Of a stretch of DNA of 26,936 bases, positions 1 to 18,115 are shown piece by piece. Position 1 is the stretch's first letter. Every line of letters starts with the position of its first letter. The position numbers and the translations under genes were made by a program. The notes under the pieces are model-generated. The model saw nothing but the letters and a program-made list of their open reading frames with translations, was not told where the DNA came from and ran no database searches. This stretch comes from a virus. The stretch covers positions 1-26,936 of IMG/VR virus record IMGVR_UViG_3300037961_002519; one strand, 5' to 3'.

Positions 1-861
1 AGCGGTAGCGGTGTTTTGTACAGCACCTTGCTCAGCAACCTTATAGATGGTTCTGATGACTTCACGGTTGATTTCAGCGAGGATCTCAGTTGACAGAATG
101 TTTGCCAACTCAGCTTCTGCATTCAGACCGTGGATTGCCTTGAGGTCCTGAGCGAGTTCTAACGAATACTCAGCCTTCAGGGCGCGTGACTTTGCAGTAA
201 CGGTGACCTTCTCGATCGAGAAGTTCATCTGGTTGAAGGCATTGTCGCCAGTGCCATCAAGTGCTTCTGCAGAGTCGGTTCTCATGCCCTGACCGACATT
301 GTAGCCGAGGGATGATGCAGAACCAACAGGGTTCAGTGCAGCAGGGTTAGTGCCAGACTGTGAAGTAGTACCCATACCAGCGATGGTATCGCTCTGTCCA
401 GTCTCGTCGTTGGAAGCGTTGTCGCGACCGGAGAAGGAGGTATCTGCTTCGTTGTAGAATGCCTCATCGCCAGCGGTACGGCTAGTACCATAGCGGGAGC
501 GCATTGCGAAGATCAGTCCAGTAGGACCGTTCATTGGTTGAACGCCAGCCAGGTCATAAGCGACCAGGTTAGGCATGGAGCGTCTGATCAAGGAGATCAG
601 AACGGGGTCGAAACCAGCAACAGGACCTGTTGCGGTTGCGTCAGCGGAGAAACCAGGGGTAGCACCAGAACCAGTGTTCATGGTGGGTTGCTCCATGAGC
701 ATTCCGCCATTTTCGAATGCGGATTGCTCTCTGAGGAATTTCTCTTGGTTTTCGAGCAGGACTGCGGTTACTGCCTTACGATGGGAATCTTTGATTGGAT
801 CAAGACCCTCATAGTTGAGGAGAGGTGCCCACTTTTCCTGCAGATGCTCTGATTGGAACAT
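1..861 (-). CDS. gp23: Major capsid protein gp23, N-terminal part (3' end runs out of window)
   Basis: This is the T4-like major capsid protein that forms the hexamers of the head shell. The reading frame is open from ATG at 861 to base 1, giving 287 codons, so the C-terminal part is missing. It starts MFQSEHLQEKWAPLL, similar to the T4 gp23 start region (LLNKWKPLL). The blocks NLVAYDLAGVQPMNGPTG and SRALKAEYSLELAQDLKAIH match conserved gp23 segments, followed by ELANILSTEILAEINREV. A probable prohead protease site, Leu-Met-Glu at residues 55-57, would remove the N-terminal delta region, as cleavage after Glu65 does in T4. A weak ribosome site (AAAGG) lies about 10 bases before the ATG. The gene follows scaffold gene gp22 after a 54-base gap, as in T4. 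Identity is secure; the exact cleavage point is inferred. Confidence 0.97.
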   Translation of the reverse strand, partial: MFQSEHLQEKWAPLLNYEGLDPIKDSHRKAVTAVLLENQEKFLREQSAFENGGMLMEQPTMNTGSGATPGFSADATATGPVAGFDPVLISLIRRSMPNLVAYDLAGVQPMNGPTGLIFAMRSRYGTSRTAGDEAFYNEADTSFSGRDNASNDETGQSDTIAGMGTTSQSGTNPAALNPVGSASSLGYNVGQGMRTDSAEALDGTGDNAFNQMNFSIEKVTVTAKSRALKAEYSLELAQDLKAIHGLNAEAELANILSTEILAEINREVIRTIYKVAEQGAVQNTATA

Positions 862-915: not shown

Positions 916-2001
916 TTATTTGCTAAAGGAACCCAGGGTTCTCATGTATGCAGCCATTGAATTGGAGTAAGACTCCGAATCTGCATGGTCTACACCTTCG
1001 GAAAGGGTTTCTTTCTTAGCGGTTGGAGAAACTGCTTTCTGAGGGAAATATGATTCCTTCAGAGTCTCCAGTTTTTCACGATATTCTTCTTCACTTTCAA
1101 ACTCAACACTTTCGGAAAGTGATGCGAGTTTCTCCTTCTGGGTCTGTGCAAGACCCTCGGAGACTTGATCTAAGACTCCATCAGCAACCGACTCTGCGAG
1201 ACGCTTGTTGAGAGAGATGTTCTTATCGATCTGCTCGTTGAGTTTTTCTTCCATCTCATCAAGTTTTTCTACCATGCTCTCAAGAACATCATACTTATCT
1301 TCAGGGATTGTTACATAATGTGCTTCAAAAAGATCCTTCATGCCTGAGAGGAAGCTCTCAGTCATTTCGGTCTTGAGTCCATGTTCGATAACGAGAGCGT
1401 TTTCTGAGTACCACTCATCAGCGACGTACTCAAGATAAGAATCGACACGCTCTGCGATTTCTTCTTTAACTTGCTCTACCTCTTCGGTGAGCTTTTCAGC
1501 ATACTGGGCTTCCAGTGCTTCTTTAATACCAGCAACCTTAGCGTTGATTGCTGCTTCAAAGATGGTCTTTGCCTTTTCTTTGAATTCCTCGGAGAGTTCT
1601 TCGCCGCCAAGGAGAGCATTGACATCTTCATCGACATCATACTCTTCTACAGTTTCTTCGGTCTCTTCTTCTACAACCTCATCGACGATCTCTTGACCCT
1701 CTTCGATTGTATCTTCTGCGGAAAGTTCTTCTTCTTCTTTTGCCATACCTTTTGCTGCTTCTGCTGGTTTTGCGCCTTTGGTTACAACATCCTTAACTTG
1801 CTTAAGGGTGCCACCAGGAGTCTTCAGCTTTGCTGAATCGTCATCTGGTTTGTAGTTCTCAGGAGTAGGACCCCCAAGATCTTCATAAGAACCAGCAACC
1901 GATGTATCCATTGGATCTGCTGGCTTAGCACCAGCATTAACAGCGGTTTTGGATTGCTGTGTCTTTACATCCATTTCTTGTAATTGTTTTCCACGAGACA
2001 T
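916..2001 (-). CDS. gp22: Prohead core scaffold protein gp22
   Basis: This is the main scaffold of the prohead core, on which gp23 assembles. It is later degraded by gp21. Residues 187-240 contain DSYLEYVADEWYSENALV and MKDLFEAHYVTIPEDKYDVL, which align with the conserved T4 gp22 segment (FLDHLAKEWLTENKLAV and GLFVEHNVVVPEE). The protein is 361 residues against 269 in T4. The excess is mostly at the N terminus: a Pro/Lys-rich stretch (residues 20-85) and a very acidic Glu block (residues 88-137). Long helical, coiled-coil-like sequence follows to about residue 315, and the end is MAAYMRTLGSFSK. Many Leu-x-Glu triplets fit cleavage by gp21. The ribosome site GGAG lies about 8 bases before the ATG, and a TATAAATA late promoter motif lies 37 bases upstream. 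Confidence 0.93.
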   Translation of the reverse strand: MSRGKQLQEMDVKTQQSKTAVNAGAKPADPMDTSVAGSYEDLGGPTPENYKPDDDSAKLKTPGGTLKQVKDVVTKGAKPAEAAKGMAKEEEELSAEDTIEEGQEIVDEVVEEETEETVEEYDVDEDVNALLGGEELSEEFKEKAKTIFEAAINAKVAGIKEALEAQYAEKLTEEVEQVKEEIAERVDSYLEYVADEWYSENALVIEHGLKTEMTESFLSGMKDLFEAHYVTIPEDKYDVLESMVEKLDEMEEKLNEQIDKNISLNKRLAESVADGVLDQVSEGLAQTQKEKLASLSESVEFESEEEYREKLETLKESYFPQKAVSPTAKKETLSEGVDHADSESYSNSMAAYMRTLGSFSK

Positions 2002-2067: not shown

Positions 2068-2718
2068 TCAAATACTATTGAGAAAATCATTGAACAGATT
2101 CAGTTTCTGCTCATCTAATTTCTTTTGATCTACCAGTGTATTAATGGTCTTGTATGTTTTTTCTGCATACTTCTCACGAAGAATGCCTCCATCCCATACC
2201 CACTCTTTACCTTCCATGATTCCCTCAACAAATGCATCGGGAGCTGAAGGATCAGCGACGATATCTGCAGCAGTTGCTAACATGAAATCTTCGCCAACTA
2301 CATTGTATCCTTCTTTGGTTTGCTTTAAAGAACCAATACCGCGAGAAGAAACGCCGAGTTTTACACCCTCACCTAAAAGTGATTGTGCAATCTTACCCAT
2401 CGGAGTTGAAAGAACCTTTGCTTTTCCGATGAAGTTTGAACCGCTTTCCTTCAAAGATACAATCTTATGAGATACACGATCCAAATTGACGGTAGGACCT
2501 TCGGGGTGACCAAGTTCTCCAAGAGCTCTGCCTTGGGCAACATGATTCTCATTATATCTAGTCACTTCACGACGAAGAGTTTCCATGGGATACATTCTGC
2601 CATTTCTGTTACAGATGTTTCCTTGAAGGAAAACTCCTTCAATGTAAAGTGATTGCTTACCGTTGCGATTTTCAACGATAATTTCAACCTTTTCGATTTC
2701 TTCTCTAATGAGTTTCAT
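2068..2718 (-). CDS. gp21: Prohead maturation protease gp21
   Basis: This is the serine protease inside the prohead that cuts the scaffold, the gp23 N terminus and internal proteins before DNA packaging. It is 216 residues, against 212 in T4. The N-terminal block SLYIEGVFLQGNICNRNGRMYP matches T4 GLYIEGIFMQAEVVNRNKRLYP in part. RALGELGHPEGP (residues 64-75) carries the expected catalytic His71. KLGVSSRGIGSL (residues 120-131) carries the nucleophile serine (Ser124 or Ser125), equivalent to the T4 GVSSRGLGSL motif. DPSAPDAFV (156-164) is also shared. The start ATG overlaps the stop of the preceding gene as TAATG, which suggests coupled translation. It sits between the core proteins and gp22, as in T4. 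Confidence 0.96.
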   Translation of the reverse strand: MKLIREEIEKVEIIVENRNGKQSLYIEGVFLQGNICNRNGRMYPMETLRREVTRYNENHVAQGRALGELGHPEGPTVNLDRVSHKIVSLKESGSNFIGKAKVLSTPMGKIAQSLLGEGVKLGVSSRGIGSLKQTKEGYNVVGEDFMLATAADIVADPSAPDAFVEGIMEGKEWVWDGGILREKYAEKTYKTINTLVDQKKLDEQKLNLFNDFLNSI

Positions 2719-5870: not shown

Positions 5871-8102
5871 TCAAACTCTACCAACGACCTCTTCAAAACT
5901 GACCCCAGTTCGAGTCGCAACAAACGTCAGAGTGACGTAGTTGATCGATTTTGCTGGTTTCAGGAAGATGTCTGCTCTAAATTCATTATTATCAATAACG
6001 TCAGGAGTGTTATTCGTGGTATCACAAACAACCAGGAATCCATAGATTCCTCTCTTCGCCTCAACATCTCTGAGATAAGGTTCAACGATGTTTCTGAAGT
6101 TTGCTCTTGTTAACTCATCATTGAGTTCAAAGAGTTGTGCTTCTGCTGCTCTTTCAAGTGCTTGCTCAACAGTGAGGAACAAGCGACGGACGTTGATTCT
6201 GTCGAACGCAGATGCGTAACCGAGAGCAGTCTTATCACCAAACAGGAGTGAACCAATGCCAGGTTTCGTGACAATTGAGTTAATTCTCAGAGGATACAAT
6301 TGATCTCTTTGAGCCTTGTTTGGATTGTATGCAAGTTTGACAACGTTGTTAAGAATACCACGTTGCTGGCCAGCAGGTGAGAACCAAGGATATGCTTGGA
6401 TCGCTGTTCTAACCATCAATCCAGCAATGTCTGCATTGGTTGGAACATAACGGAATTCATTATTGAATCTGTCATACTTGTATGCGTATCCAGAATCAAA
6501 GACTGCATAAGATGAAGATTGAAGTGGTGAGAAGAACTCAATCAAGTTGTCGGTTTGTACGCTAGAGTTGGTCTCATTGACCAAATCACCTCTGTGTGGT
6601 CCAATGACTGCCATGCAGTCTTTTCTGCTATTTGCAAGAGAAATCAAGTGATTTGCTTTTGCCTGTGACAAGTTCTTGGCACCAAGACCAGGACCCATGA
6701 TCAGATAATCAACTGCGATTTCATCTCTGTTTAGGAAAAGATCGTATCCACTGACAAGATTTCCAAGAGTGGCTTCCATTCCACCGTTGGCTCCGATTTC
6801 AGGAACTCCTGCGGAGTAGTCTTCGCCACCACCAAGTGCGTAAGTTACGTTTCCAATTGAAGCAAAGGTAACGTCCTGCGCCTTCTGTCTCCAAAGTCCA
6901 CCAGCAGTGGTAATTGGAGTATAGTCTGTGGAGAATCCAACTGCTCTTGGCTCAGTGCCATGGTAGAGATCTGCTGCTGCGGATGGGTTATTTCCGGCAT
7001 AGACATAATCTGATCTATCTGCGACATACTGTTTATAGTAGATCTTGGTTGGAGCATCTACGTTTGAAACAGCGTCTTGTGCCTTAGACAGACTTACAAA
7101 CTTCTCAAGGATAGTTCCTTGGTTTCCAGTAATCGTACCAAAGTCGTCAACAACCGCAACGTGGATTCCGTCTCCTTTACCATTTCTATCCAGTGAATAG
7201 ACGTTTGATACTGGTTTTGGAGCAATTGTCTTCCAGTAAATAACCGCGTTATCCAGATCAAGCGTTTGCTGATCGTACCAGTCTTTTGCGGTTACAGGAG
7301 TGTATGCGGCATCGTCTGCAGAAAGTCCAGTGTTAATACCAGCGTTATTAACAAAGAACAGTGAGTCTGAAGTATCAAACTGCGAGTATGCTACTCCCTG
7401 ACTGTAGTCAATCTTTGTGGTAGTATTTACACCCGATGTCGTTTCTACACGAGCGACAACTTTGACATCAATTGTGCTATTTCCGCCAGTTGCGTCTGTG
7501 CTAACACCCGTAATAATACCTTTAAGATATCCATTGAAGGTGGAAGTTGTTCCAAGACCAACAATTACGGTATCATTAAGTGCTGCAGTAACACCATAAC
7601 CAATGATAGCACCAGCAGTGTTAAGGTTGGTTGTGTTAATACCGATTCTTTGGTCCGCAAGGTCGTCAATGACGCAAACCTTGAGTCCGTTGCCCCAGGA
7701 TCCAGGGTTCTTTGCTGCCCAAGCGTAGTTGGTTCCACTCTCGTGGTTGTTTTGGTAATCGTCGTAGTTGTCAATTTTCAATGCATTAGTCGATGCAATA
7801 CCAACACCGGCATTAGCGTTGTTTAAGTCGTCGTCGCCAACTCTAACAACCTTCAGAACTCCTCCATATGAAAGGTATGAAGCCGCACTCATCCAATACT
7901 CGTATTGAGAATCAGTAGAGAGTGGTTTACCAAAAGTGTTGATAAGTTCTTGCTCAGTAGTGATGTCAATCGCTTCATTAACAGGTCCAATTCTGAAAGG
8001 TCCAGCAATCGCACCGATATTATCTAAAACATTATCAGCTCTTCCTACTGTTAAGTCAACCTCCCTAATTAATACACCGGGAGATAATTGAGGAGTCGCC
8101 AT
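5871..8102 (-). CDS. gp18: Tail sheath protein gp18
   Basis: This is the contractile sheath subunit that shortens to drive the tube through the cell envelope. It is 743 residues against 659 in T4. The N terminus LSPGVLIREVDLTVGRADN is the classic sheath start, followed by GPFRIGPVNEAIDITTEQEL. The conserved C-terminal domain is present: NVRRLFLTVEQALERAAEAQ, TRANFRNIVEPYLRDVEAKR, and an end IFLKPAKSINYVTLTFVATR then TGVSFEEVVGRV. The middle (about residues 115-330) is a Thr/Asn/Gly-rich variable region, which probably forms the outward-facing insertion domains and explains the extra length. GGAGA lies about 10 bases before the ATG, with a late motif 35 bases upstream. It lies after the terminase genes, as in T4. 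Confidence 0.98.
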   Translation of the reverse strand: MATPQLSPGVLIREVDLTVGRADNVLDNIGAIAGPFRIGPVNEAIDITTEQELINTFGKPLSTDSQYEYWMSAASYLSYGGVLKVVRVGDDDLNNANAGVGIASTNALKIDNYDDYQNNHESGTNYAWAAKNPGSWGNGLKVCVIDDLADQRIGINTTNLNTAGAIIGYGVTAALNDTVIVGLGTTSTFNGYLKGIITGVSTDATGGNSTIDVKVVARVETTSGVNTTTKIDYSQGVAYSQFDTSDSLFFVNNAGINTGLSADDAAYTPVTAKDWYDQQTLDLDNAVIYWKTIAPKPVSNVYSLDRNGKGDGIHVAVVDDFGTITGNQGTILEKFVSLSKAQDAVSNVDAPTKIYYKQYVADRSDYVYAGNNPSAAADLYHGTEPRAVGFSTDYTPITTAGGLWRQKAQDVTFASIGNVTYALGGGEDYSAGVPEIGANGGMEATLGNLVSGYDLFLNRDEIAVDYLIMGPGLGAKNLSQAKANHLISLANSRKDCMAVIGPHRGDLVNETNSSVQTDNLIEFFSPLQSSSYAVFDSGYAYKYDRFNNEFRYVPTNADIAGLMVRTAIQAYPWFSPAGQQRGILNNVVKLAYNPNKAQRDQLYPLRINSIVTKPGIGSLLFGDKTALGYASAFDRINVRRLFLTVEQALERAAEAQLFELNDELTRANFRNIVEPYLRDVEAKRGIYGFLVVCDTTNNTPDVIDNNEFRADIFLKPAKSINYVTLTFVATRTGVSFEEVVGRV

Positions 8103-8136
8103 GTTTTTGTTCTCCGAATCTCAGTTTATCTGAAAA

Positions 8137-8144
8137 TATTTATT
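8137..8144 (-). promoter_or_regulatory. Late promoter motif AATAAATA before gp18
   Basis: AATAAATA on the minus strand, 35 bases before the gp18 ATG, in the 78-base gap after the zinc-binding gene. No other gene or hairpin is seen in this gap. Confidence 0.65.
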
Positions 8145-8180
8145 AAAAAGTTACTTTTCGCAGGGGAATCATGACGTGAA

Positions 8181-8393
8181 CTACCAATCTGGATATTGCC
8201 AGTGATCGGATGATTTTTTTACTCTCTTTTTGGTGCAGTCCTTACATTCATATGAATATGAGGAAGCAACCGCTCCACGATCTTTTCTTGTTCTATAGAA
8301 GTCATCAACTAAATTCTTGACTTCTCCACACACTCTACATTTTCTATCTTGAAGTAATAAATGACCTAACTTTAATTGACCATCTAAGTCCAT
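8181..8393 (-). CDS. Small zinc-binding protein after the terminase
   Basis: This basic protein of 70 residues carries two CxxC pairs: CRVC at residues 18-21 and CKDC at 50-53, about 28 residues apart. That is a zinc-ribbon layout. Between them lies LVDDFYRTRKDRG and after them KKRVKKSSDHWQYPDW. The Cys spacing resembles the zinc site of T4 endonuclease VII (gp49), but the protein is far too short to contain the rest of that enzyme, so I do not call it a nuclease. I chose the ATG at 8393 because it overlaps the gp17 stop as TAATG, the same joint used elsewhere here. An in-frame ATG at 8411 would add six residues. Its place between gp17 and gp18 suggests a DNA-binding helper in packaging or processing; this is inferred. 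Confidence 0.8.
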   Translation of the reverse strand: MDLDGQLKLGHLLLQDRKCRVCGEVKNLVDDFYRTRKDRGAVASSYSYECKDCTKKRVKKSSDHWQYPDW

Positions 8394-10042
8394 TATGATA
8401 GATAATCCCACATATAAGCTCTATCACCATACTCATCAGTAAACCATCTATCGCCATCATTATCAACAAAACTATCACTGTTTAAACCATCATCGATAAA
8501 TCCAAATGGTGACATGTCTTGTTCAATCTGATTCTTCTGTTCCTCATATAATCTTTTGCGAACGTCTTGATCAGTTAGTTCTTTGAAATAATCTTGTGCA
8601 ACCAACCATGCATAGATGACAAGACACATTGCTAAGTCATCATTACATCCATCTTCAGCCTCAAATGAATTATTCTTTTGAATGAACGTTGTTAGTTCAG
8701 AAATAATTTCGTAGTCATTAAATAATAACTTATCTTCCTCAATAATTGTTTTAAGATTAAGTGCTCCAACCTTCTTTACAGTCTTGGACATCTTGACACC
8801 AAGTTGAGTTTTCTTACCAGAAAAACCCTGACCTACAATTTGTCCCGCTCTACCTCTCATTGAACACATGAGAAGGTTTTGATATTCCAAATCATATTGG
8901 AGGATACTCGCTACCTGATCTCCAATATCATTTACTTCGCATAAAATAAACGCACTGTTATAACTCTTTGCTACTTCCCAAATTATATTGGGAAATAACA
9001 TGGGTTTAATCTCATTATTCCTATACTTAGCTACAATTCTGTGAGGAAACTCTGTAATGTCTACGACCACGAACGCTGAATAATCTTCACTCACTCCACG
9101 AGCAACGTCTACTGTTATGACATAATCGTGATTTTCTTGAGATGATTCATATACATCCAACCCAGCATTTCTTTTAGATGGATTATCATAAATGAGAGTT
9201 CTGAGTTTACTGGGTGCAATCAGGGTATCAACTGATCCTAAGAACTCACATTCAAACTCAACCTTGAACTGTGCTTCTGACGTGTTCTTAATAGTTGTTT
9301 TTTTCCACTTCTCATCCCTACCTGGAACTTCTGACCAGTGAACATCTGTAGGGACATAATCATTCTTTTGTTTTTCTGCATCGTGCCACAGACGGTAGAA
9401 GTGGTTCATACCATGTGGCGTGGACACGATAATTACTTTGGTGTTTTTACCAGAAGTAATAGTAGGATAAACAGATGCAAAGAACGAGTCAGCGACGTGA
9501 TTTGGGACAAACGCGAACTCGTCGAGAAAGAGGATGTTGAACGACATACCTCGGACAGCACTTGCAGACGTAGAAGCTGCCAATATCTTACTGCCATTTT
9601 CTAATTCCAGAGATCCTTTGTTCCATGCTATGATACCTTGTTGCATCCATCGTGGCAAGTTTTCATAAGCAGTCTGTAACCTTCCAAGAAGTTCTCTTGC
9701 GGTTGCTGCTTTGTTTGCCAGAATGCCAATGTTTACGCTGTCATTGAATACAGCATAATGCAAAAGGTAAGATACGACTGTAGTGGATTTACCAGTTTGT
9801 CGTGGCATCTTACAGATATTAAATCTGTTATTGTGGAAGTTATTAATTAACTTCTCCTGGAAATGATATGGGTGGAACTGAGTCAAACCCTCATCAAGAG
9901 AAATAATCTTAACATAGTTATTTGCAAAGTAAACAGGATCTTCTTTGCATTTCATAAACTCAATAACTTGCTCTTGAGTAAACTCAATCGCAGTATTTGC
10001 TTTTTTTAAATTAGGATTGCCAAGATATACATTATCAGACAT
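8393..10042 (-). CDS. gp17: Terminase large subunit gp17 (packaging ATPase and nuclease)
   Basis: This is the motor and headful nuclease that pumps DNA through the portal. It is 549 residues against 610 in T4. The ATPase domain holds Walker A at residues 79-87 (MPRQTGKST, Lys85) and Walker B at about 170-175 (ILFLDE, Asp174 and catalytic Glu175). STPHGMNHFY (207-216) is the coupling motif region. The RNase H-like nuclease domain begins about residue 305: VITVDVARGVSEDYSAFVVV carries Asp312, FILCEVNDIGDQV carries Glu369, and CNDDLAMCLVIYAW carries the last acidic residues. QFKVEFECEFLGS is also typical of the family. A good ribosome site, AAGGAG, lies about 13 bases before the ATG, inside the end of the 52-residue gene upstream. 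Confidence 0.98.
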   Translation of the reverse strand: MSDNVYLGNPNLKKANTAIEFTQEQVIEFMKCKEDPVYFANNYVKIISLDEGLTQFHPYHFQEKLINNFHNNRFNICKMPRQTGKSTTVVSYLLHYAVFNDSVNIGILANKAATARELLGRLQTAYENLPRWMQQGIIAWNKGSLELENGSKILAASTSASAVRGMSFNILFLDEFAFVPNHVADSFFASVYPTITSGKNTKVIIVSTPHGMNHFYRLWHDAEKQKNDYVPTDVHWSEVPGRDEKWKKTTIKNTSEAQFKVEFECEFLGSVDTLIAPSKLRTLIYDNPSKRNAGLDVYESSQENHDYVITVDVARGVSEDYSAFVVVDITEFPHRIVAKYRNNEIKPMLFPNIIWEVAKSYNSAFILCEVNDIGDQVASILQYDLEYQNLLMCSMRGRAGQIVGQGFSGKKTQLGVKMSKTVKKVGALNLKTIIEEDKLLFNDYEIISELTTFIQKNNSFEAEDGCNDDLAMCLVIYAWLVAQDYFKELTDQDVRKRLYEEQKNQIEQDMSPFGFIDDGLNSDSFVDNDGDRWFTDEYGDRAYMWDYLS

Positions 10043-10047
10043 TCAGT

Positions 10048-10206
10048 TCAAACTCCTTTTAACATTGACCCTTTTTTTATTTGGGACGGTTTTAGAGAAT
10101 CTGCCGGTTTTTGGGGATTGTTTATAGCTTTATATCTAGCATTAATACTGGCATCTTTTTGAACAGGAGTTAAAGATGTTTCGTAAAATTGCTTGAAAGT
10201 TTTCAT
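10048..10206 (-). CDS. Small basic protein starting MKTFKQF; possible internal head protein
   Basis: This 52-residue gene fills the gap between the 675-residue gene and gp17. Its ATG is one base after the upstream stop (TGATATG) and its stop is 5 bases before the gp17 ATG, so it fits the operon exactly. It starts MKTFKQFYETS. T4 internal proteins start with the capsid targeting sequence MKTYQEFIAE, which places them in the prohead core and is removed by gp21. Here FYE at residues 7-9 could be the cleavage site. The rest, such as PQKPADSLKPSQIKKGSML, is basic (about 8 Lys/Arg against 2 Asp) and probably unstructured. An AATAAATA late motif lies 28 bases upstream. That it is a real gene is well supported by fit and start; the internal-protein role is inference. 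Confidence 0.72.
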   Translation of the reverse strand: MKTFKQFYETSLTPVQKDASINARYKAINNPQKPADSLKPSQIKKGSMLKGV

Positions 10207-10207
10207 A

Positions 10208-12235
10208 TCAGCAGTTCCAAGCTCTTAATGATTTATTTATTCTACTGTTGGGATCGTTAGCAGTTTTAGATGAAGTCAACTTTTTCTTCATACCCTTCAT
10301 TCGAGCACAAAATGATGCGCGACGGGGGTTTCCAACCTTCTTGCTTGGTGCCTTAAGGTCGCTTCCAGGATTCTCTCTTTCGTAAGATTTGCGTCCTTTT
10401 TCGTTGAGTCCACCTGATTTTTTCTTTCCTTCCTTTCTTGTCCATGCTGCTGATTCTGCATGGAGAAGTGGTTGTCCTGGGACATACTCGGATACCTGGT
10501 AACTTTGAACTTTAGCGCCAGGATAGACCTTTTCAATCTGATCTTGTACTTCAGATCTACTTGGTTTCTTTACCGTTGGGAAAAACATTTTAATGCCATA
10601 ATATTTTCCTCTCCATGAGAGGTGAACCATAATAATGTTTCCAGTTTTTGCTGGGATGCGAATGGCTTCATTAACTTCTTCGGGGCAGGCATCGGAACCA
10701 TGAACTGGGCAATCTTTACCCTTCTTGGTGTGAACGCATTCTGCCTCTTCTTTTTTGACACAGTTTGGATATCTCTTACCAAACATGGTCTTCATGCCTT
10801 TCTTCTCATATCCTTTCCAACACTTCTCATCAAGTTCAAATTCTTCTTTCTTAGTCTTAGACTTGTTTCCCCAGTTGGCAGCACCAACTTTACGGCATTT
10901 GACCAGTGCTCCTGACGCATATGCACTTGGCCAAACAGAGTAGCGTGATTTGACTTTGTGGTAGCAAGCATCTTTCTTGCCTTCCTCAATATCAATTTGA
11001 TCACCTACTTCAACATTATTTTCTGCGAACCATCCACGGTTTACTTCTAACGCGCACAGTACTTCTCCATCCGAAGTTACTGGGGATTCGTCAAATGGTT
11101 CTAGTTCTTTTATGCTTTCGATTATGCCATCCTCTCTGATGAAAGCAATATCCAGAGGGATTTTGGTTTCTTTCATGTAGAAAGATTGCTCTGCTACTTC
11201 ATCAAAGACGAACAGCATTCCACTGTTTTCTTCTAAACTTTCGCGGAACATGAGTCCCAAGTTGAAATCTCTAATGTTATTTGGAATTTCGATGTTGAGT
11301 GGCAGAGTTACGAACTCTGTGCTTTCCTTTACAGATTTCATTTTTTTCTTGGGTTTATCAGTTGGAACATATGTGGGTTTTGCCGCACCAGTCTTTTGTG
11401 GTTGACCAGGATCAGCAGCTCTCTTTCTTCTTTGAGCAGACTCTCTTTCGGATTTGCTCATGCTTGCTCTCTTTGCAGAGGACACGCATTTAGGTGTTGA
11501 TTTTTGACCAGGTTGACGAGCACAGGGTTTACCTGACACTACTTGAACCCAACCAGGTTTCCCACCTTTTGATCTTGACTTACCAAACCAATCGCGAAGA
11601 CCTTCTTCACTTACAGTGCCACCGTTTCCGTTGCCACCATTACCATTACCATTACCATTACCATTTCCGTTGCCATTACCATTCTTTTTGGTATCGTCAA
11701 CAGAATGACCATTTTCTTTACGAAGCATTCCTGCACGACCAACTACTTTGAATCCTTTGGGGATTGGCTTACACTTTTCATCGGTGTAACAGTAGTATTG
11801 TCCTTCAGGGCAACGACCATTCTTCTTCTCTTCATTTACATCACCAGAAGTATCTTTCTTATGAAGATTCTTATAGAGATGTTTATGAAGAGGTTTTGCT
11901 TTATTCATGATTTTATCTTTTTCAGAATAGTCTTGCGCTTCATTCATTTTTTTGGTCTTCTTCTTCATTGAGTTAATGAACTTTCTATAAACCGCTGCTT
12001 CTGAAGTCTTTCCCATTTCTCTTGCTCTCTGTTCCATAGCAACAGCTGCCTGGATTTTGTGAGCATGAGATCTTGATGAATTACGAATCTTAGAAACAGA
12101 TGCTTTAGCAGTCGCAACATCCTTAAACCCAAGTCCATGAATCGTGCCTTTTGGATTTTCATCCGTATAAAGGTCAGAGTGTTTCTTGGAGTTTGCTGGT
12201 TGACCAGGTTTTCTTGGGATACGAGGATTGCTCAT
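10208..12235 (-). CDS. Mosaic lysine-rich protein with DUF192 domain and several Cys-bearing modules
   Basis: This protein of 675 residues looks like a chain of small basic modules. Residues 18-99 are a helical unit (HGLGFKDVATAKASVSKI). 139-166 hold CPEGQYYCYTDEKCKPIPKG. 185-206 are Asn-Gly repeats. 211-292 hold GLRDWFGKS, GWVQVVSGKPCAR and PKCVSSAKRASMSKSER. 306-419 are a DUF192 domain (GLMFRESL, GMLFVFDE, IPLDIAFI, ALEVNRGWF). 421-457 hold CYHKVKSRYSVWPSAYASGA. 468-493 hold CWKGYEKKGMK and RYPNC. 499-517 are a Cys/His knuckle. 525-592 are a small alpha/beta unit. 605-675 hold GGLNEKGRKSYERENPGSDL and end NKSLRAWNC. The function is unknown. No enzyme site is evident. Its strong basic charge and its place between the terminase genes suggest a DNA-associated virion protein. 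Its ATG overlaps the upstream stop as ATGA. Confidence 0.9.
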   Translation of the reverse strand: MSNPRIPRKPGQPANSKKHSDLYTDENPKGTIHGLGFKDVATAKASVSKIRNSSRSHAHKIQAAVAMEQRAREMGKTSEAAVYRKFINSMKKKTKKMNEAQDYSEKDKIMNKAKPLHKHLYKNLHKKDTSGDVNEEKKNGRCPEGQYYCYTDEKCKPIPKGFKVVGRAGMLRKENGHSVDDTKKNGNGNGNGNGNGNGNGGNGNGGTVSEEGLRDWFGKSRSKGGKPGWVQVVSGKPCARQPGQKSTPKCVSSAKRASMSKSERESAQRRKRAADPGQPQKTGAAKPTYVPTDKPKKKMKSVKESTEFVTLPLNIEIPNNIRDFNLGLMFRESLEENSGMLFVFDEVAEQSFYMKETKIPLDIAFIREDGIIESIKELEPFDESPVTSDGEVLCALEVNRGWFAENNVEVGDQIDIEEGKKDACYHKVKSRYSVWPSAYASGALVKCRKVGAANWGNKSKTKKEEFELDEKCWKGYEKKGMKTMFGKRYPNCVKKEEAECVHTKKGKDCPVHGSDACPEEVNEAIRIPAKTGNIIMVHLSWRGKYYGIKMFFPTVKKPSRSEVQDQIEKVYPGAKVQSYQVSEYVPGQPLLHAESAAWTRKEGKKKSGGLNEKGRKSYERENPGSDLKAPSKKVGNPRRASFCARMKGMKKKLTSSKTANDPNSRINKSLRAWNC
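10234..10241 (-). promoter_or_regulatory. Late promoter motif AATAAATA before the 52-residue gene and gp17
   Basis: AATAAATA on the minus strand, 28 bases before the ATG of the 52-residue gene. It lies within the last codons of the 675-residue gene (AGA ATA AAT AAA). Its spacing matches that of gp20 and gp67. It would give the large terminase and its small upstream neighbour their own late transcript. Confidence 0.55.
11618..11683 (-). repeat. Hexanucleotide tract encoding Asn-Gly repeats
   Basis: On the minus strand a GGTAAT/GGCAAC-type hexamer repeats, encoding eight Asn-Gly pairs then G, two more pairs and G (residues 185-206 of the 675-residue protein). The central copies are nearly identical (AATGGT), a typical slippage-prone tandem repeat. 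At protein level it is a flexible linker between modules. Confidence 0.9.
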
Positions 12236-12387
12236 TCAACTGGTTTAGATTTAGTTTGACCACCTGCTGCTCTTTTTTTACGTCCAGCACAGTGTGCTTT
12301 CTGAGAGAATCCTTTCGGATTTGAACAGTCAATACTCTTTTTATATTTATTAGACCAAGACTCTTGAAACTGTTTGTATGTTTTCAT
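12232..12387 (-). CDS. Small basic protein starting MKTYKQF with a paired-Cys module; possible internal head protein
   Basis: This 51-residue gene fits exactly between two neighbours: its ATG overlaps the stop of the 656-residue gene (ATGA), and its own stop overlaps the ATG of the 675-residue gene (ATGA). It starts MKTYKQFQESW, sharing MKTYxxF with the T4 capsid targeting sequence MKTYQEFIAE and MKTxKQF with the 52-residue gene before gp17. FQE at residues 7-9 could be cut by gp21. The remainder holds DCSNPKGFSQKAHCAGRKKR (residues 20-39), a compact Cys-x11-Cys basic unit, followed by AAGGQTKSKPVE. It carries roughly 11 Lys/Arg against 2 acidic residues after the proposed cut. The module style matches the adjacent mosaic protein. 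Coding reality is well supported by the two overlaps; function is inferred. Confidence 0.78.
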   Translation of the reverse strand: MKTYKQFQESWSNKYKKSIDCSNPKGFSQKAHCAGRKKRAAGGQTKSKPVE

Positions 12388-14354
12388 ACTTTTGTAAGAG
12401 TTTTTGAAACTTTGAATACTGTAGATGTATCAGAACTTGGGGTGGCTCTAACTCTTACGTTTCCAGAATTTATATCTGCGTCAAACGTTGCAAGAGATGA
12501 TCCAGTTTTAATAGTTCCAAATTCACTCAAATAAACTGATGATCCGTCATGTAAAACATTTAATGTCGTGACATGGTATGAAGAACCTTGAGTGATTTGA
12601 ACCTGATATTGTGCAGATCTAAACACCGATGCATCAAAAGTATCTATATTAGATTCACTGGTCGTCGTAGTTGTCGCTGTTGCAGCTCCTAAGGTAACGA
12701 GAGTTGTTATGCTACCAGCACCAATTTCCAAACCGCTTCTTGCGGTTGCAACTCCAACAGAATCGAGAAAAGTAACATCATCATATGTTATTGTTCCACC
12801 AACGGTTACGTTTCCAGAAAAAGTTGCACTAGATCCTTCAATAATATTGAACGTTGAAGTTCCTGTGGTGCTAATTCCTGGAATTGAAACGGGCAACGCA
12901 GTGCTAGCAATACCAACCCATTGACTTCCATTGTAGATGAGAAGCTTGTTGGTTCCAGTAGTTTGATCAAAACTTACATCATCAAGATCTTTGATGAATC
13001 CAGCACCACCACCGCCAATGGTAGAAATCTGTTGTTGGATTCTGTTGATAAAGAGTCTATAGTGACCAGCAAGATCATCAAGCGTTGCAAACTTTTGATC
13101 CATTGGAGTTAACGGATCTGCTTGACCACCTACAGATTCTTTTTCATTTGGAGGTTCATTTAAAAGACCTTCTTGAAGTTCCTCCTGAATATTTTGCTGT
13201 TCAGATTTAATTAATTCAACGATCTCATACAGTTGTTTGATACTAGATTTTACATCCTTAATATCTTCATCATAGTATTTTACTTCTGGAAGTTCCGATA
13301 CTTCCTTTCTAAGTTCTTCGAAATACTTAAGAAGTAATTGATCTGTATTGACACTATCTTCTACATATTTTTCAATGCTCTCATGAACATTTTTCTTTAA
13401 CAAATCATATTCGTTTCTGATTTGTTTTTTAAGTTTTTTATCGTCGTCTTTAAATTCTTTATGATATTCCCAAATCTTTAAAGATGACTCTCTAAGTTCT
13501 TTCCAGATTCTGTCCTTAGAGTCACTAAACTTTTTATCGAGGTCTTCAATTTTATTGCCAAACTCAACACCACTTTCAAAGTGCTTGGTCTCATTCTCTT
13601 CAGTAAATTCTTTGAAATCTATGTGAAGTCTTTGTTTTACTGTTTCAATTTTATCGTTGACTTTAATAAAGTCGTCGTCGATAACACTGAAAGTTTTTCC
13701 AATCCAAGAAAAATCTGGGACTTCATTTACCTCATTGACCCACTTTGGAAAGGTAGGAATCTGATTCTTTACTTCTTCAATATCTTCTCTGATTGATTGA
13801 AGATCTCCCTCATAATATTTTGGCTCAGGAAGTTCGTCAATATTTTGATTTACAAGATCAAGACGTTCCTCTAAAGACTTGATTTGATCATCATAATATT
13901 TTATCTCTGGTATATCTGCAGCATTCTTTTCTATTACTTCTTTTACTAGATCAATCTGCTCACAGATAGCCTCTATTTCTGCTTCATAATATCTAACTTC
14001 AGGAACCTCTGGTATTTGATCTTTTACCAGATTGATTTGCTCTTCTAAATCTTCAAGTTCCTTATCATAGTATTTGATTTCGGGGATATCTGGAATCTCT
14101 TCCCTGATATCATTTACTAATCTAAGTAACTCTGGCCATGGGGGAACAATATCTTTTACCTCTGCGAAAGTATTCCCGTCCAGGTCCTCTATTGTCTGAG
14201 TTGCCTCTTCTATTTCCTCTTTTTCTTCTACAATGAATTCGCTAACAGAAGGCAACTCCTCTGATACTTCTTCTGTTAAATAATCGTCAATTGACGGTAA
14301 ATTGCTGAGATCTTCAGCAAAGTCATCAATTGAAGGCAATCCTTCGTTTGACAT
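12384..14354 (-). CDS. Long coiled-coil virion protein with fibre-like C terminus
   Basis: The protein has 656 residues and is not a T4 core protein. The first 41 residues hold three LPSIDDF-like copies (positions 6, 19, 34). Residues 45-400 are highly charged and mostly coiled coil, including repeats that begin PEIKYYD, PEVRYYE, PEIKYYD and PEPKYYE at 91, 118, 149 and 176, with one more PEVKYYD at 356. Residues 446-500 turn to Gly-rich GGGGAGFIKDLDDVSFDQTT and a Ser/Thr-rich shaft (GISTTGTSTFN). The last 150 residues are beta-rich (YQVQITQGSSYHVTTLNVLH, ending VFKVSKTLTKV), resembling tips of marine phage fibre proteins. It is likely a trimeric fibre or whisker-like virion part attached at head, neck or tail. 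The genomic place between gp16 and gp17 does not tell which. The nearest late motif is 43 bases upstream, with no clear ribosome site. Confidence 0.9.
   Translation of the reverse strand: MSNEGLPSIDDFAEDLSNLPSIDDYLTEEVSEELPSVSEFIVEEKEEIEEATQTIEDLDGNTFAEVKDIVPPWPELLRLVNDIREEIPDIPEIKYYDKELEDLEEQINLVKDQIPEVPEVRYYEAEIEAICEQIDLVKEVIEKNAADIPEIKYYDDQIKSLEERLDLVNQNIDELPEPKYYEGDLQSIREDIEEVKNQIPTFPKWVNEVNEVPDFSWIGKTFSVIDDDFIKVNDKIETVKQRLHIDFKEFTEENETKHFESGVEFGNKIEDLDKKFSDSKDRIWKELRESSLKIWEYHKEFKDDDKKLKKQIRNEYDLLKKNVHESIEKYVEDSVNTDQLLLKYFEELRKEVSELPEVKYYDEDIKDVKSSIKQLYEIVELIKSEQQNIQEELQEGLLNEPPNEKESVGGQADPLTPMDQKFATLDDLAGHYRLFINRIQQQISTIGGGGAGFIKDLDDVSFDQTTGTNKLLIYNGSQWVGIASTALPVSIPGISTTGTSTFNIIEGSSATFSGNVTVGGTITYDDVTFLDSVGVATARSGLEIGAGSITTLVTLGAATATTTTTSESNIDTFDASVFRSAQYQVQITQGSSYHVTTLNVLHDGSSVYLSEFGTIKTGSSLATFDADINSGNVRVRATPSSDTSTVFKVSKTLTKV
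13809..14084 (-). repeat. Four protein-level repeats of about 27-31 residues (PExKYYD/E)
   Basis: Residues 91-182 of the 656-residue protein contain four units starting PEIKYYD, PEVRYYE, PEIKYYD and PEPKYYE, at spacings of 27, 31 and 27 residues. Each is followed by a helical stretch such as LEEQINLVKDQI or LEERLDLVNQNI. The DNA copies are diverged, so this is an old duplication kept at protein level. Confidence 0.88.
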
Positions 14355-14395: not shown

Positions 14396-14824
14396 TTATT
14401 TATCGTCTTCTTTAAGTCCAGTCTTCAGCATTTTGGCAAGTTCTGCTGTAGAACCAACAAACAGTGCATTAGTTACATTCTGAGGTGATTTTGCTGCAGA
14501 TTCTTCTTGAACTTCTTTGAGTTCCTTCTGCAATTTCATCAGTTTATCGGTTGCATCAGCAACGTTCTTGATCAGTTGACCAGCAACCTCATATGCTCTT
14601 GGCATCTCACTTTCTTGCGCTAATTCCAAGATTCCATTAAGTGCCTCTTGACCTTTTTCTATGACTGAATATAAATTTCCTCGTGTATATTCATAGTCTT
14701 TAACAATATCATCTTTGGATTGTTGTTTCACAATATCAGTTTTTTGATCCTTTGATTCAGGAACAACCGTGCTCTCTACATTGAAAGCATCATCTAGATT
14801 GTCATACTTTTTTGTCATTTTCAT
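14396..14824 (-). CDS. gp16: Terminase small subunit gp16
   Basis: This is the small terminase that recognises DNA and stimulates the gp17 ATPase. It is 142 residues, against 164 in T4. The N terminus is charged and probably flexible. Residues 42-100 are two long helices (DYEYTRGNLYSVIEKGQEAL and SEMPRAYEVAGQLIKNVADA), which align in pattern with T4 gp16 (DYGVVRRNMHF, SPRHMEVFATLMGQM). The C-terminal NVTNALFVGSTAELAKML matches T4 QNATVFMGSPTELMDEI. The start ATG overlaps the gp15 stop (TGATG). A second in-frame ATG two codons later is an alternative. The next gene is not gp17 but the coiled-coil protein, so the two terminase genes are more than 4 kb apart, unlike T4. Confidence 0.92.
   Translation of the reverse strand: MKMTKKYDNLDDAFNVESTVVPESKDQKTDIVKQQSKDDIVKDYEYTRGNLYSVIEKGQEALNGILELAQESEMPRAYEVAGQLIKNVADATDKLMKLQKELKEVQEESAAKSPQNVTNALFVGSTAELAKMLKTGLKEDDK
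14397..14404 (-). promoter_or_regulatory. Late promoter motif GATAAATA before the coiled-coil gene
   Basis: GATAAATA on the minus strand, 43 bases before the 656-residue gene. It overlaps the last codons and stop of gp16 (GAT AAA TAA). Confidence 0.5.
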
Positions 14825-17269: not shown

Positions 17270-18115
17270 TTACCCAATCATATCTAAAGGTGGAAGTTCG
17301 TATGTATTTGACATTTTCTCCATCAGAGTTTCCATCTCTTTTTGAGCATCGTCATATATCTGACGGCCATTCAGTTCTACTCCACCTGGAAGTTTAACAC
17401 CTTGGAATTTGATTAGGTTTTGTCCCCACTGTTTTTTAATTAAAATTGTTAAGTATTTTTTGAGGAAAGAGTCATTGTAAACTCTTGTAAAATCATCTGG
17501 ATTCAATAGACGATAACAATCTATTACCAAATAGTCATCGACTGTTACACTTGCCCAATCAAGATCAAGATATAACCGATCGTCTCTTTGATTAAATCTT
17601 ATTTGCTTTTCTGTGCTCAATGCAAAATCTAAATCTTCCAGATATCTTTTTACCATTGCATAACTCAAAATTTCAGTTGAACTAAAATGATACATGTCAT
17701 TTAAGAACAACTGATATTTAACACTAAACATGTTACTGGTTCTAGTGTTAGACCCATCAAATCTGAATATTTTATTCACACCGATTACCGCTGGCGGCAC
17801 TTGAAGATAATTGCTATTTTCTTCGTATGAAAATGTTGTTGCAGTTCCAGCGATTGTTGTGCTTGCTGTTGTAGTTACAATACCTATTGGGTTACTACTT
17901 CCTCTTCCTCTTCCGCGATCAATATCGTCTTGAGTAATTTTATATTTCAAATACATCTGAGTGACACCATTAAAGTGTCTCTCATGAAAATATTGCAGAG
18001 CATCATCAACCAGATCTTCGACCTGTTCGTCTGCAACGTTAATTTCCAGCACTGGTGCTCCCAGTTGCCTTTTGCAGTACGTTATAAGTTCAGACCTACT
18101 GGATGGTTGAGCCAT
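17270..18115 (-). CDS. gp13: Neck protein gp13
   Basis: gp13 closes the filled head together with gp14 and forms the site for tail joining. It is 281 residues, against 309 in T4. Residues 9-50 (ELITYCKRQLGAPVLEINVA, DLVDDALQYFHERHFNG) are the conserved start of the family in marine T4-like phages. YLKYKITQDDIDRGRGRG follows. The C-terminal half holds SVKYQLFLNDMYHFSS, RFNQRDDRLYLDLDWASVTV, VIDCYRLLNPDDFTRVYND and FLKKYLTILIKKQWGQNLIK, ending PPLDMIG. AGAGGTG lies about 9 bases before the ATG, and a CATAAATA late motif 22 bases before it. It is followed directly by gp14. Confidence 0.95.
   Translation of the reverse strand: MAQPSSRSELITYCKRQLGAPVLEINVADEQVEDLVDDALQYFHERHFNGVTQMYLKYKITQDDIDRGRGRGSSNPIGIVTTTASTTIAGTATTFSYEENSNYLQVPPAVIGVNKIFRFDGSNTRTSNMFSVKYQLFLNDMYHFSSTEILSYAMVKRYLEDLDFALSTEKQIRFNQRDDRLYLDLDWASVTVDDYLVIDCYRLLNPDDFTRVYNDSFLKKYLTILIKKQWGQNLIKFQGVKLPGGVELNGRQIYDDAQKEMETLMEKMSNTYELPPLDMIG

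Follow-up and report, generated by a model that had tools for sequence, protein, structure and literature searches.

The question raised by this locus was what a gene of 51 codons, lodged among the structural genes of a phage, provides to the virion. The window (the whole 26,936-nucleotide stretch analysed) represents part of the genome of a T4-like cyanomyovirus closely related to S-SM2 and Bellamy (gp17 identity 91% and 88%, respectively), with its main genes all on the minus strand in the order gp13, gp14, gp15, gp16, tail-fibre-like protein, 51-aa gene, 675-aa protein, 52-aa gene, gp17 and gp18-gp23; names were assigned by comparison with S-SM2, those of gp21 and gp22 being confirmed by Pfam. 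The 51-aa gene (ATG at 12387-12385, stop at 12232-12234) had been singled out as a short basic frame with two Cys, joined by ATGA overlaps at both ends and opening with a T4-style capsid-targeting start. These features were confirmed, and the strand, which had been omitted, is the minus one; the overlaps link the gene to its upstream and downstream neighbours (Table 1).

Table 1. Features of the window (h-x-E, hydrophobic-x-E)
Feature	Position	Strand	Remark
gp13	17270-18115	-	
gp16	14396-14824	-	
Tail-fibre-like protein, upstream neighbour of the 51-aa gene	12384-14354	-	
51-aa gene, MKTYKQFQESWSNKYKKSIDC...	12232-12387	-	ATGA overlap at either end; conserved, 79 aligned copies
Leader, residues 1-9, MKTYKQFQE, capsid-targeting-like	12361-12387	-	putative cut after E9
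Predicted mature basic peptide, 42 aa	12235-12360	-	boundary is the module start in other proteins
675-aa modular protein (PHROG 727, DUF192, DUF6321)	10208-12235	-	mostly basic modules in a string
Junction MNE AQDYSE, residues 97-99 of the 675-aa protein	11939-11947	-	h-x-E
Junction VNE EKKNGR, 675-aa protein	11831-11839	-	h-x-E
Junction VSE EGLRDWF, 675-aa protein	11606-11614	-	h-x-E
Junction VKE STEFVT, DUF192 start	11324-11332	-	h-x-E
Junction IEE GKKDACY, 675-aa protein	10982-10990	-	h-x-E
Junction LDE KCWKGY, 675-aa protein	10826-10834	-	h-x-E
Junction VNE AIRIPA, 675-aa protein	10667-10675	-	h-x-E
Junction LNE KGRKSYE, DUF6321 module start	10400-10408	-	h-x-E
Second leader gene, 52 aa, MKTFKQFYETSLTPVQ..., adjoins gp17	10048-10206	-	
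gp21 prohead protease (Peptidase_S77)	2068-2718	-	presumed processing enzyme; Pfam PF03420, E=1e-36
gp22 prohead core scaffold	916-2001	-	presumed docking partner of the leader; Pfam T4_CASP, E=1e-81
gp23 (major capsid protein), 5' part	1-861	-	propeptide end ..GGMLME QPTMN, L-x-E site

The frame is a real gene, since a counterpart 94% identical is annotated at the same place in Bellamy (gp122) and relatives are abundant in IMG/VR; it is tiny and easy to overlook. Its product, MKTYKQFQESWSNKYKKSIDCSNPKGFSQKAHCAGRKKRAAGGQTKSKPVE, has a calculated net charge of +10, a pI of 10.1 and a mass of 5780 Da, the mass being that of the window sequence, from which orthologues differ slightly. Pfam and PHROGs returned no useful match for the 51-mer or its family, the mature part resembling no known family, and no PDB match was found for its AlphaFold model. 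This model, of modest confidence (pLDDT 71), places helices at residues 4-14 and 27-40, with Y4, F7 and W11 predicted to lie on one face of the former.

At least 598 IMG/VR stretches were confirmed to encode a relative. Among the best 80 of these, the gene stands alone with an MK[TS][FY] start in 78, and the MKT[FY]KxFxE start, on whose conservation the original prediction depended, was likewise kept in 78. In 79 aligned copies K2, F7 (79/79), E9 and W11 are invariant and position 4 is F or Y; position 10 is E in 40, D in 26 and S in the rest. The leader is the most constrained part of the gene: pN/pS was 0.058 over codons 2-9, rising to 0.146 over codons 10-40 and to 0.31 in the tail, figures that are relative and usable as a ranking only, since synonymous sites are near saturation. 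The downstream gene, reached through a short overlap, differs between contigs and is usually a modular protein.

The T4 genome bears out the likeness originally proposed: IPII and IPIII start with MKTYQEFIAE, and IPI with MKTFKEF (MKTFKEFTSTTTPVSTITEA). Genetic work in T4 assigned targeting to residues 4 and 7 of this signal and processing to residues 8 and 10, the gp21 motif being L/I-x-E; D at position 10 stops processing and leaves targeting unaffected (PMC9026906). The 51-mer has the targeting half (Y4, F7), with Q8-E9-S10 where T4 has I8-A9-E10. No L/I-x-E site occurs anywhere in it, and the sole candidate cut is F7-Q8-E9↓S10 (↓ marks a cut or boundary here and below), which fits a relaxed hydrophobic-x-E only; with Q at position 8 and E at 9, a cut would therefore be F-Q-E↓S instead of L/I-x-E. 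A site at 8-10 is missing from T4 IPI as well, so the site need not sit there. The gp23 of the window phage has the standard site, GGMLME↓QPTMN, at the same position as in T4. If cut after E9, the 51-mer would yield a peptide of 42 aa with a net charge of +9, a pI of 10.2 and a calculated mass of 4595 Da. In the main texts of the papers searched, no match to the leader string or to cyanophage capsid targeting was found beyond one T4 review.

The leader is not confined to this gene. When searched for in three complete cyanophage genomes with a strict expression (^[MVL].{0,3}[FYLW]..F[LIVMF].E), annotated starts carried it ∼43-fold more often than other start codons did (9/719 vs 4/13,650; p=1e-9). 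In metagenomic loci, leaders of this form were found on about nine (at least nine) unrelated cargo clusters, one further cluster looking falsely matched. Examples are MKTYNQFVLE↓A in S-PRM1, MKSFNQFLSE↓S in S-CAM9 and DSL-LC02, MKSYKQFLSE↓S in S-CREM1_177 and MKTFKQFISE.. in locus L239; MKTYNDFITE↓V precedes a DUF6321 module alone in S-CREM1_179, and MKSFSKFFSE↓A precedes NMNAT in S-SCSM2R. The 52-aa gene of the window, on the far side of the 675-aa gene from the 51-aa gene, starts with MKTFKQF. A search for its relatives returned one contig only. P-SSM2_115 resembles it (MKSFKQFLEE, later YKDINNPKKP), the P-SSM2 relative (L182:270-530) having the standard leader MKSFKQFLEE↓A; as the window leader ends in FYE and that of the P-SSM2 relative in FLEE, members of one family can differ in how the leader ends. 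A weak PHROG 'head protein' match of the 52-aa gene (E=0.05) was disregarded. In locus L200 (MKTFKQFQEAQV..YKDITSP), MKTFKQFQE is joined to a cargo like that of the 52-aa gene and unlike that of the 51-aa one.

The most telling case of leader swapping is S-SM2_108 (MKTLKQFLKE↓TPTNSVGNGGYTSAGG), in which the leader is fused, at the homologous cut position, to the mature N-arm of gp23. Its cargo, TPTNSVGNGGYTSAGGQTVAGYD, copies that arm starting right past the predicted cut of gp23 (MIAE↓QPTNAVGNGGYTSSGG, MIAE↓QPTNAVGNGGYTSSGGQTVAGFD), and its C-terminal end bears a second leader-like stretch and the WSNKYKKSIDC module. Copies of the gp23 arm (..GFTGAAAPEGPVAGYDP..) were observed in minor proteins (L001:31377-31805, L096:28342-29235, ORFs in L263 and L181, and S-SCSM1_97 at 93121-93306 of MK867354, L267), two of the gp23-arm proteins having been detected in virions by others. 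In the middle of the 707-aa basic protein S-SZBM1_194 (L095, 23252-25375) stands EGFITYREFIAE↓GNRT, nearly identical to the T4 capsid-targeting sequence.

Published virion proteomes were used to relate the leader to packaging: those of S-CREM2 (52 of 219 ORFs detected; PMC10665884 Table 3), S-SZBM1 (30 proteins; PMC9146016), S-SCSM1 (45 proteins according to the paper, PMC9602691; 48 by our own count of GenBank 'virion protein' flags) and S-SM1 (41 proteins; PMC3037559). All five S-CREM2 proteins matching the strict expression were in virions (SAM hydrolase gp6, gp13, kinase gp14, gp136 and cytidylyltransferase gp154; PMC10665884). S-SZBM1 and S-SCSM1 each had one match detected (a cytidylyltransferase and NMNAT, respectively) and one not. 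Over these three proteomes, strict-leader proteins were thus detected in 7 of 9 cases, against 130/719 (18%) overall (p=1.4e-4). The expression was fixed after S-CREM2 had been inspected, and S-CREM2 drives the association (2/4 without it, p=0.12), so the link between leader and virion detection is suggestive rather than a clean test. Virion preparations may, moreover, hold contaminants.

The cytidylyltransferases S-SZBM1_140, S-SCSM1_91 and S-SM1_190 carry the leader and were detected (PMC9602691, PMC3037559), and in 80 relatives every readable start was FxxF[ILV]xE↓A, ahead of a variable linker. T4-GC190 of S-SM1, reported in virions, starts with MKKFSAFLNE↓A. Near-misses among detected proteins were S-CREM2 gp12 (RFASFMAE↓A at residues 18-25; its Cas9 annotation had no Pfam support), S-CREM2 gp15 (MNFSEFNE↓S) and S-SCSM1_89 (MDSKTFNSLSE↓A). 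A leader protein of 105 aa (S-SZBM1_191, S-SCSM1_30) went undetected in those proteomes, and no 51-mer peptide has been reported in published work. The modular proteins S-CREM2 gp137 and S-SCSM1_29 (the latter bearing GenBank's 'virion protein' flag) were detected in virions by others. In P-SSM2 and S-SM2, T4-GC119 and GC190 share with known structural genes the annotation 'similar to Synechococcus phage S-SM1 protein', a pattern that may reflect detection in S-SM1 virions too. As side observations, cyanophage NMNAT/cytidylyltransferases (L091:2736-4028, L100-L179) have an N-terminal F-x-x-F-h-x-E↓A, consistent with their reported virion detection, and the SAM hydrolase, kinase and Cas9-annotated protein of S-CREM2 (L092:3837-5081, 10579-12846 and 7704-10313) bear either a leader of the T4 type or a stretch resembling one.

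What the original prediction missed is that the body of the 51-mer is mobile, serving as a module in larger modular proteins associated with the head. This body (W-x-x-K-Y-K-x-S-I-D-C...) is one of ∼10 small modules reshuffled in large proteins, mostly beside gp17, and is internal in those of P-TIM68, S-PRM1, S-CAM9, DSL-LC02 and S-SCSM2R. Its start is fixed, right after an E: FQE↓SW in the window, MNE↓GWSDKYKK in P-TIM68, VKE↓GWSDKYK in DSL-LC02, S-SCSM2R and locus L226, AKE↓GWSAKYKK in S-PRM1 and RE↓SWSNKYKK in S-SM2; in S-SRM01 it opens the protein (M↓GWSEKYKK), and in SynMITS9220M01 the gene retains only the leader and the module (39 aa, MKTFKQFQEGWSNKYKKSIDCSNPKGFSQRAHCAGRKKK).

The start of a local homology block coincided with h-x-E 68 times out of 151, vs 31 expected (z=7.6), and in 38/74 cases (14.7 expected) when ten divergent representatives were taken; 51 non-redundant metagenomic proteins, gathered afterwards, gave 451/1100 vs 243 (z=15.5). 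In tail/fibre proteins of the same phages h-x-E was not enriched (11/114 vs 17.6 expected, z=-1.8), and h-x-K/Q/N was depleted at module starts. The larger set was also enriched, though less than for h-x-E, in non-hydrophobic x-E (z=9.3) and h-x-D (z=6.6), so acidic linkers explain part of the signal. Sorted by distinct upstream context, h-x-E preceded the module in 33/34 cases for KCWxGY, 6/6 for NPRIPRK, 3/3 for KGRKSYE, 10/11 for DKKGKG-DACY, 10/13 for HEYxM, 6/8 for DWQxVNRK, 5/6 for the window's own module, 16/33 for LRxWF, 5/12 for DUF192 and 0/6 for YYCYTD (background 0.106). FQE itself occurs at internal junctions (VTFQQFQE↓KCW, VSYTEFQE↓KCW, LSFQDFQE↓K, GEQVEFQE↓DWQ). In the AlphaFold model of the 675-aa protein, which is weak (mean pLDDT 59), the blocks that hold the eight junction sites average a pLDDT of 47; its other h-x-E motifs, nearly all within the DUF192 fold, have a mean of 77. 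The DUF192 domain (COG1430, residues 314-416) stands apart from the other modules in being acidic and folded. With h-x-E at its module junctions, the 675-aa protein is put forward as a candidate polyprotein of the prohead protease.

Taken together, the 51-mer is probably an internal protein, packaged by means of its leader and probably processed. The original prediction is supported by the conserved start, the sharing of the leader among unrelated cargoes and the mass-spectrometric link; in one detail, the putative gp21 site, the protein departs from T4. Targeting of the 51-mer to the prohead by the leader is very likely, and targeting followed by cleavage after E9 is rated somewhat better than even. 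The reading that competes with cleavage is that the leader targets to the prohead core but stays on, the intact 51-mer being a minor DNA-bound core protein. The missing L/I-x-E, a position 10 that is D in 26 and E in 40 of 79 copies and the T4 signal with D10, targeted yet unprocessed (PMC9026906), speak for it. E9, however, is invariant in all 79 copies despite the variable position 10, F-Q-E recurs at junctions of modular proteins, and the module begins after E in unrelated contexts; retention of the leader is accordingly judged unlikely.

Regulators are frequent among small basic phage proteins, and the exact 51-mer family is unseen in virions, which would suit a non-virion protein (e.g. 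a late regulator binding DNA or RNA) with an N-terminus that is T4-like by descent or chance. Such a protein would not be expected to have a leader that outdoes the body in conservation, is common to unrelated cargoes and is tied to virion detection, nor to be encoded between gp16 and gp17, in a structural block, with module neighbours that occur in virion-detected proteins, and this origin is considered quite improbable. That the gene is an unselected fragment shed by the neighbouring modular protein and kept by drift might be suggested by the module being internal in the five phages named above, but strong purifying selection (pN/pS well below 1) and the hundreds of contigs with a relative, stand-alone in 78 of the best 80, make it scarcely credible.

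Under the preferred reading, that of a packaged and processed internal protein, the ATGA overlaps suggest that the 51-mer would be produced together with its structural neighbours. By analogy with T4, residues 1-9 would form a short amphipathic helix (F/Y4, F7, W11) docking on the gp22 prohead core; gp21 would then cut after E9, and the remaining basic peptide would stay bound to the packaged DNA. Delivery into the host with the DNA, and any role there, is speculative. In the window, the module is set apart as a gene of its own with its own leader, other cyanophages carrying it inside a large modular protein.

A general head-loading code of marine cyanomyoviruses, to which we give an even chance, would have an F-x-x-F-(h)-x-E leader load single proteins and a string of modules loaded as a polyprotein and cut at h-x-E, modules switching between the two forms by gain or loss of the leader. 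If true, single loads would range from a 42-aa peptide to NMNAT, SAM hydrolase, a kinase and a Cas9-annotated protein, and the polyprotein would be a long string of small basic modules beside gp17 from which the prohead protease makes units. NMNAT, SAM hydrolase and kinases have been found in cyanophage virions by several groups, which left undecided whether they are cargo or contaminants; a common T4-type leader offers a simple cargo test for virion-found enzymes. Sequence alone could then list the probable head cargo of very abundant ocean viruses, and the large conserved 'hypothetical' family PHROG 727/T4-GC119 gains a candidate processing map.

Three known systems invite comparison. The phiKZ-like ejection proteins (SPN3US gp53 and gp54) are also internal and are cut by a gp21-related protease, C-terminal to A-x-E (PMC10052503). 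They differ in their long propeptides, that A-x-E motif and their other cargo. They are not known to have a short MKTFxxF leader. The 675-aa protein shares with the polyvalent proteins of phages and plasmids, P1 DdrB included, a multi-domain build beside virion genes and the occurrence of distinct modules in varying combinations, here in the named phages and the 51 non-redundant metagenomic proteins; polyvalent proteins are packaged, and their processing into units has been proposed (Iyer et al. 2017, PMC5512222). They have an embedded metallopeptidase, whereas in the 675-aa protein only DUF192 and DUF6321 scored above the Pfam cut-off, and the motif that its junctions fit is that of the prohead protease encoded by the phage itself, an enzyme that would act in trans; its modules are tiny and basic, DUF192 excepted, and those of polyvalent proteins enzymatic. 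With T4 IPI-III and their capsid-targeting sequence, the 51-mer shares the MKT[YF]xxF start with aromatics at 4 and 7, a small basic product, a phage that encodes gp21 (S77) and a gp22-type core, and a leader common to otherwise unrelated proteins. It differs in the F-Q-E of its leader, with E at 9 and not 10, in an unrelated body (mature IPs also differ among themselves) that doubles as a module of larger proteins, and in a much shorter mature product. Because L/I-x-E is absent and the mature part has no detectable family similarity, the 51-mer is kept out of the IP family in the strict sense, and is best read as a T4-internal-protein-like element in a new setting.
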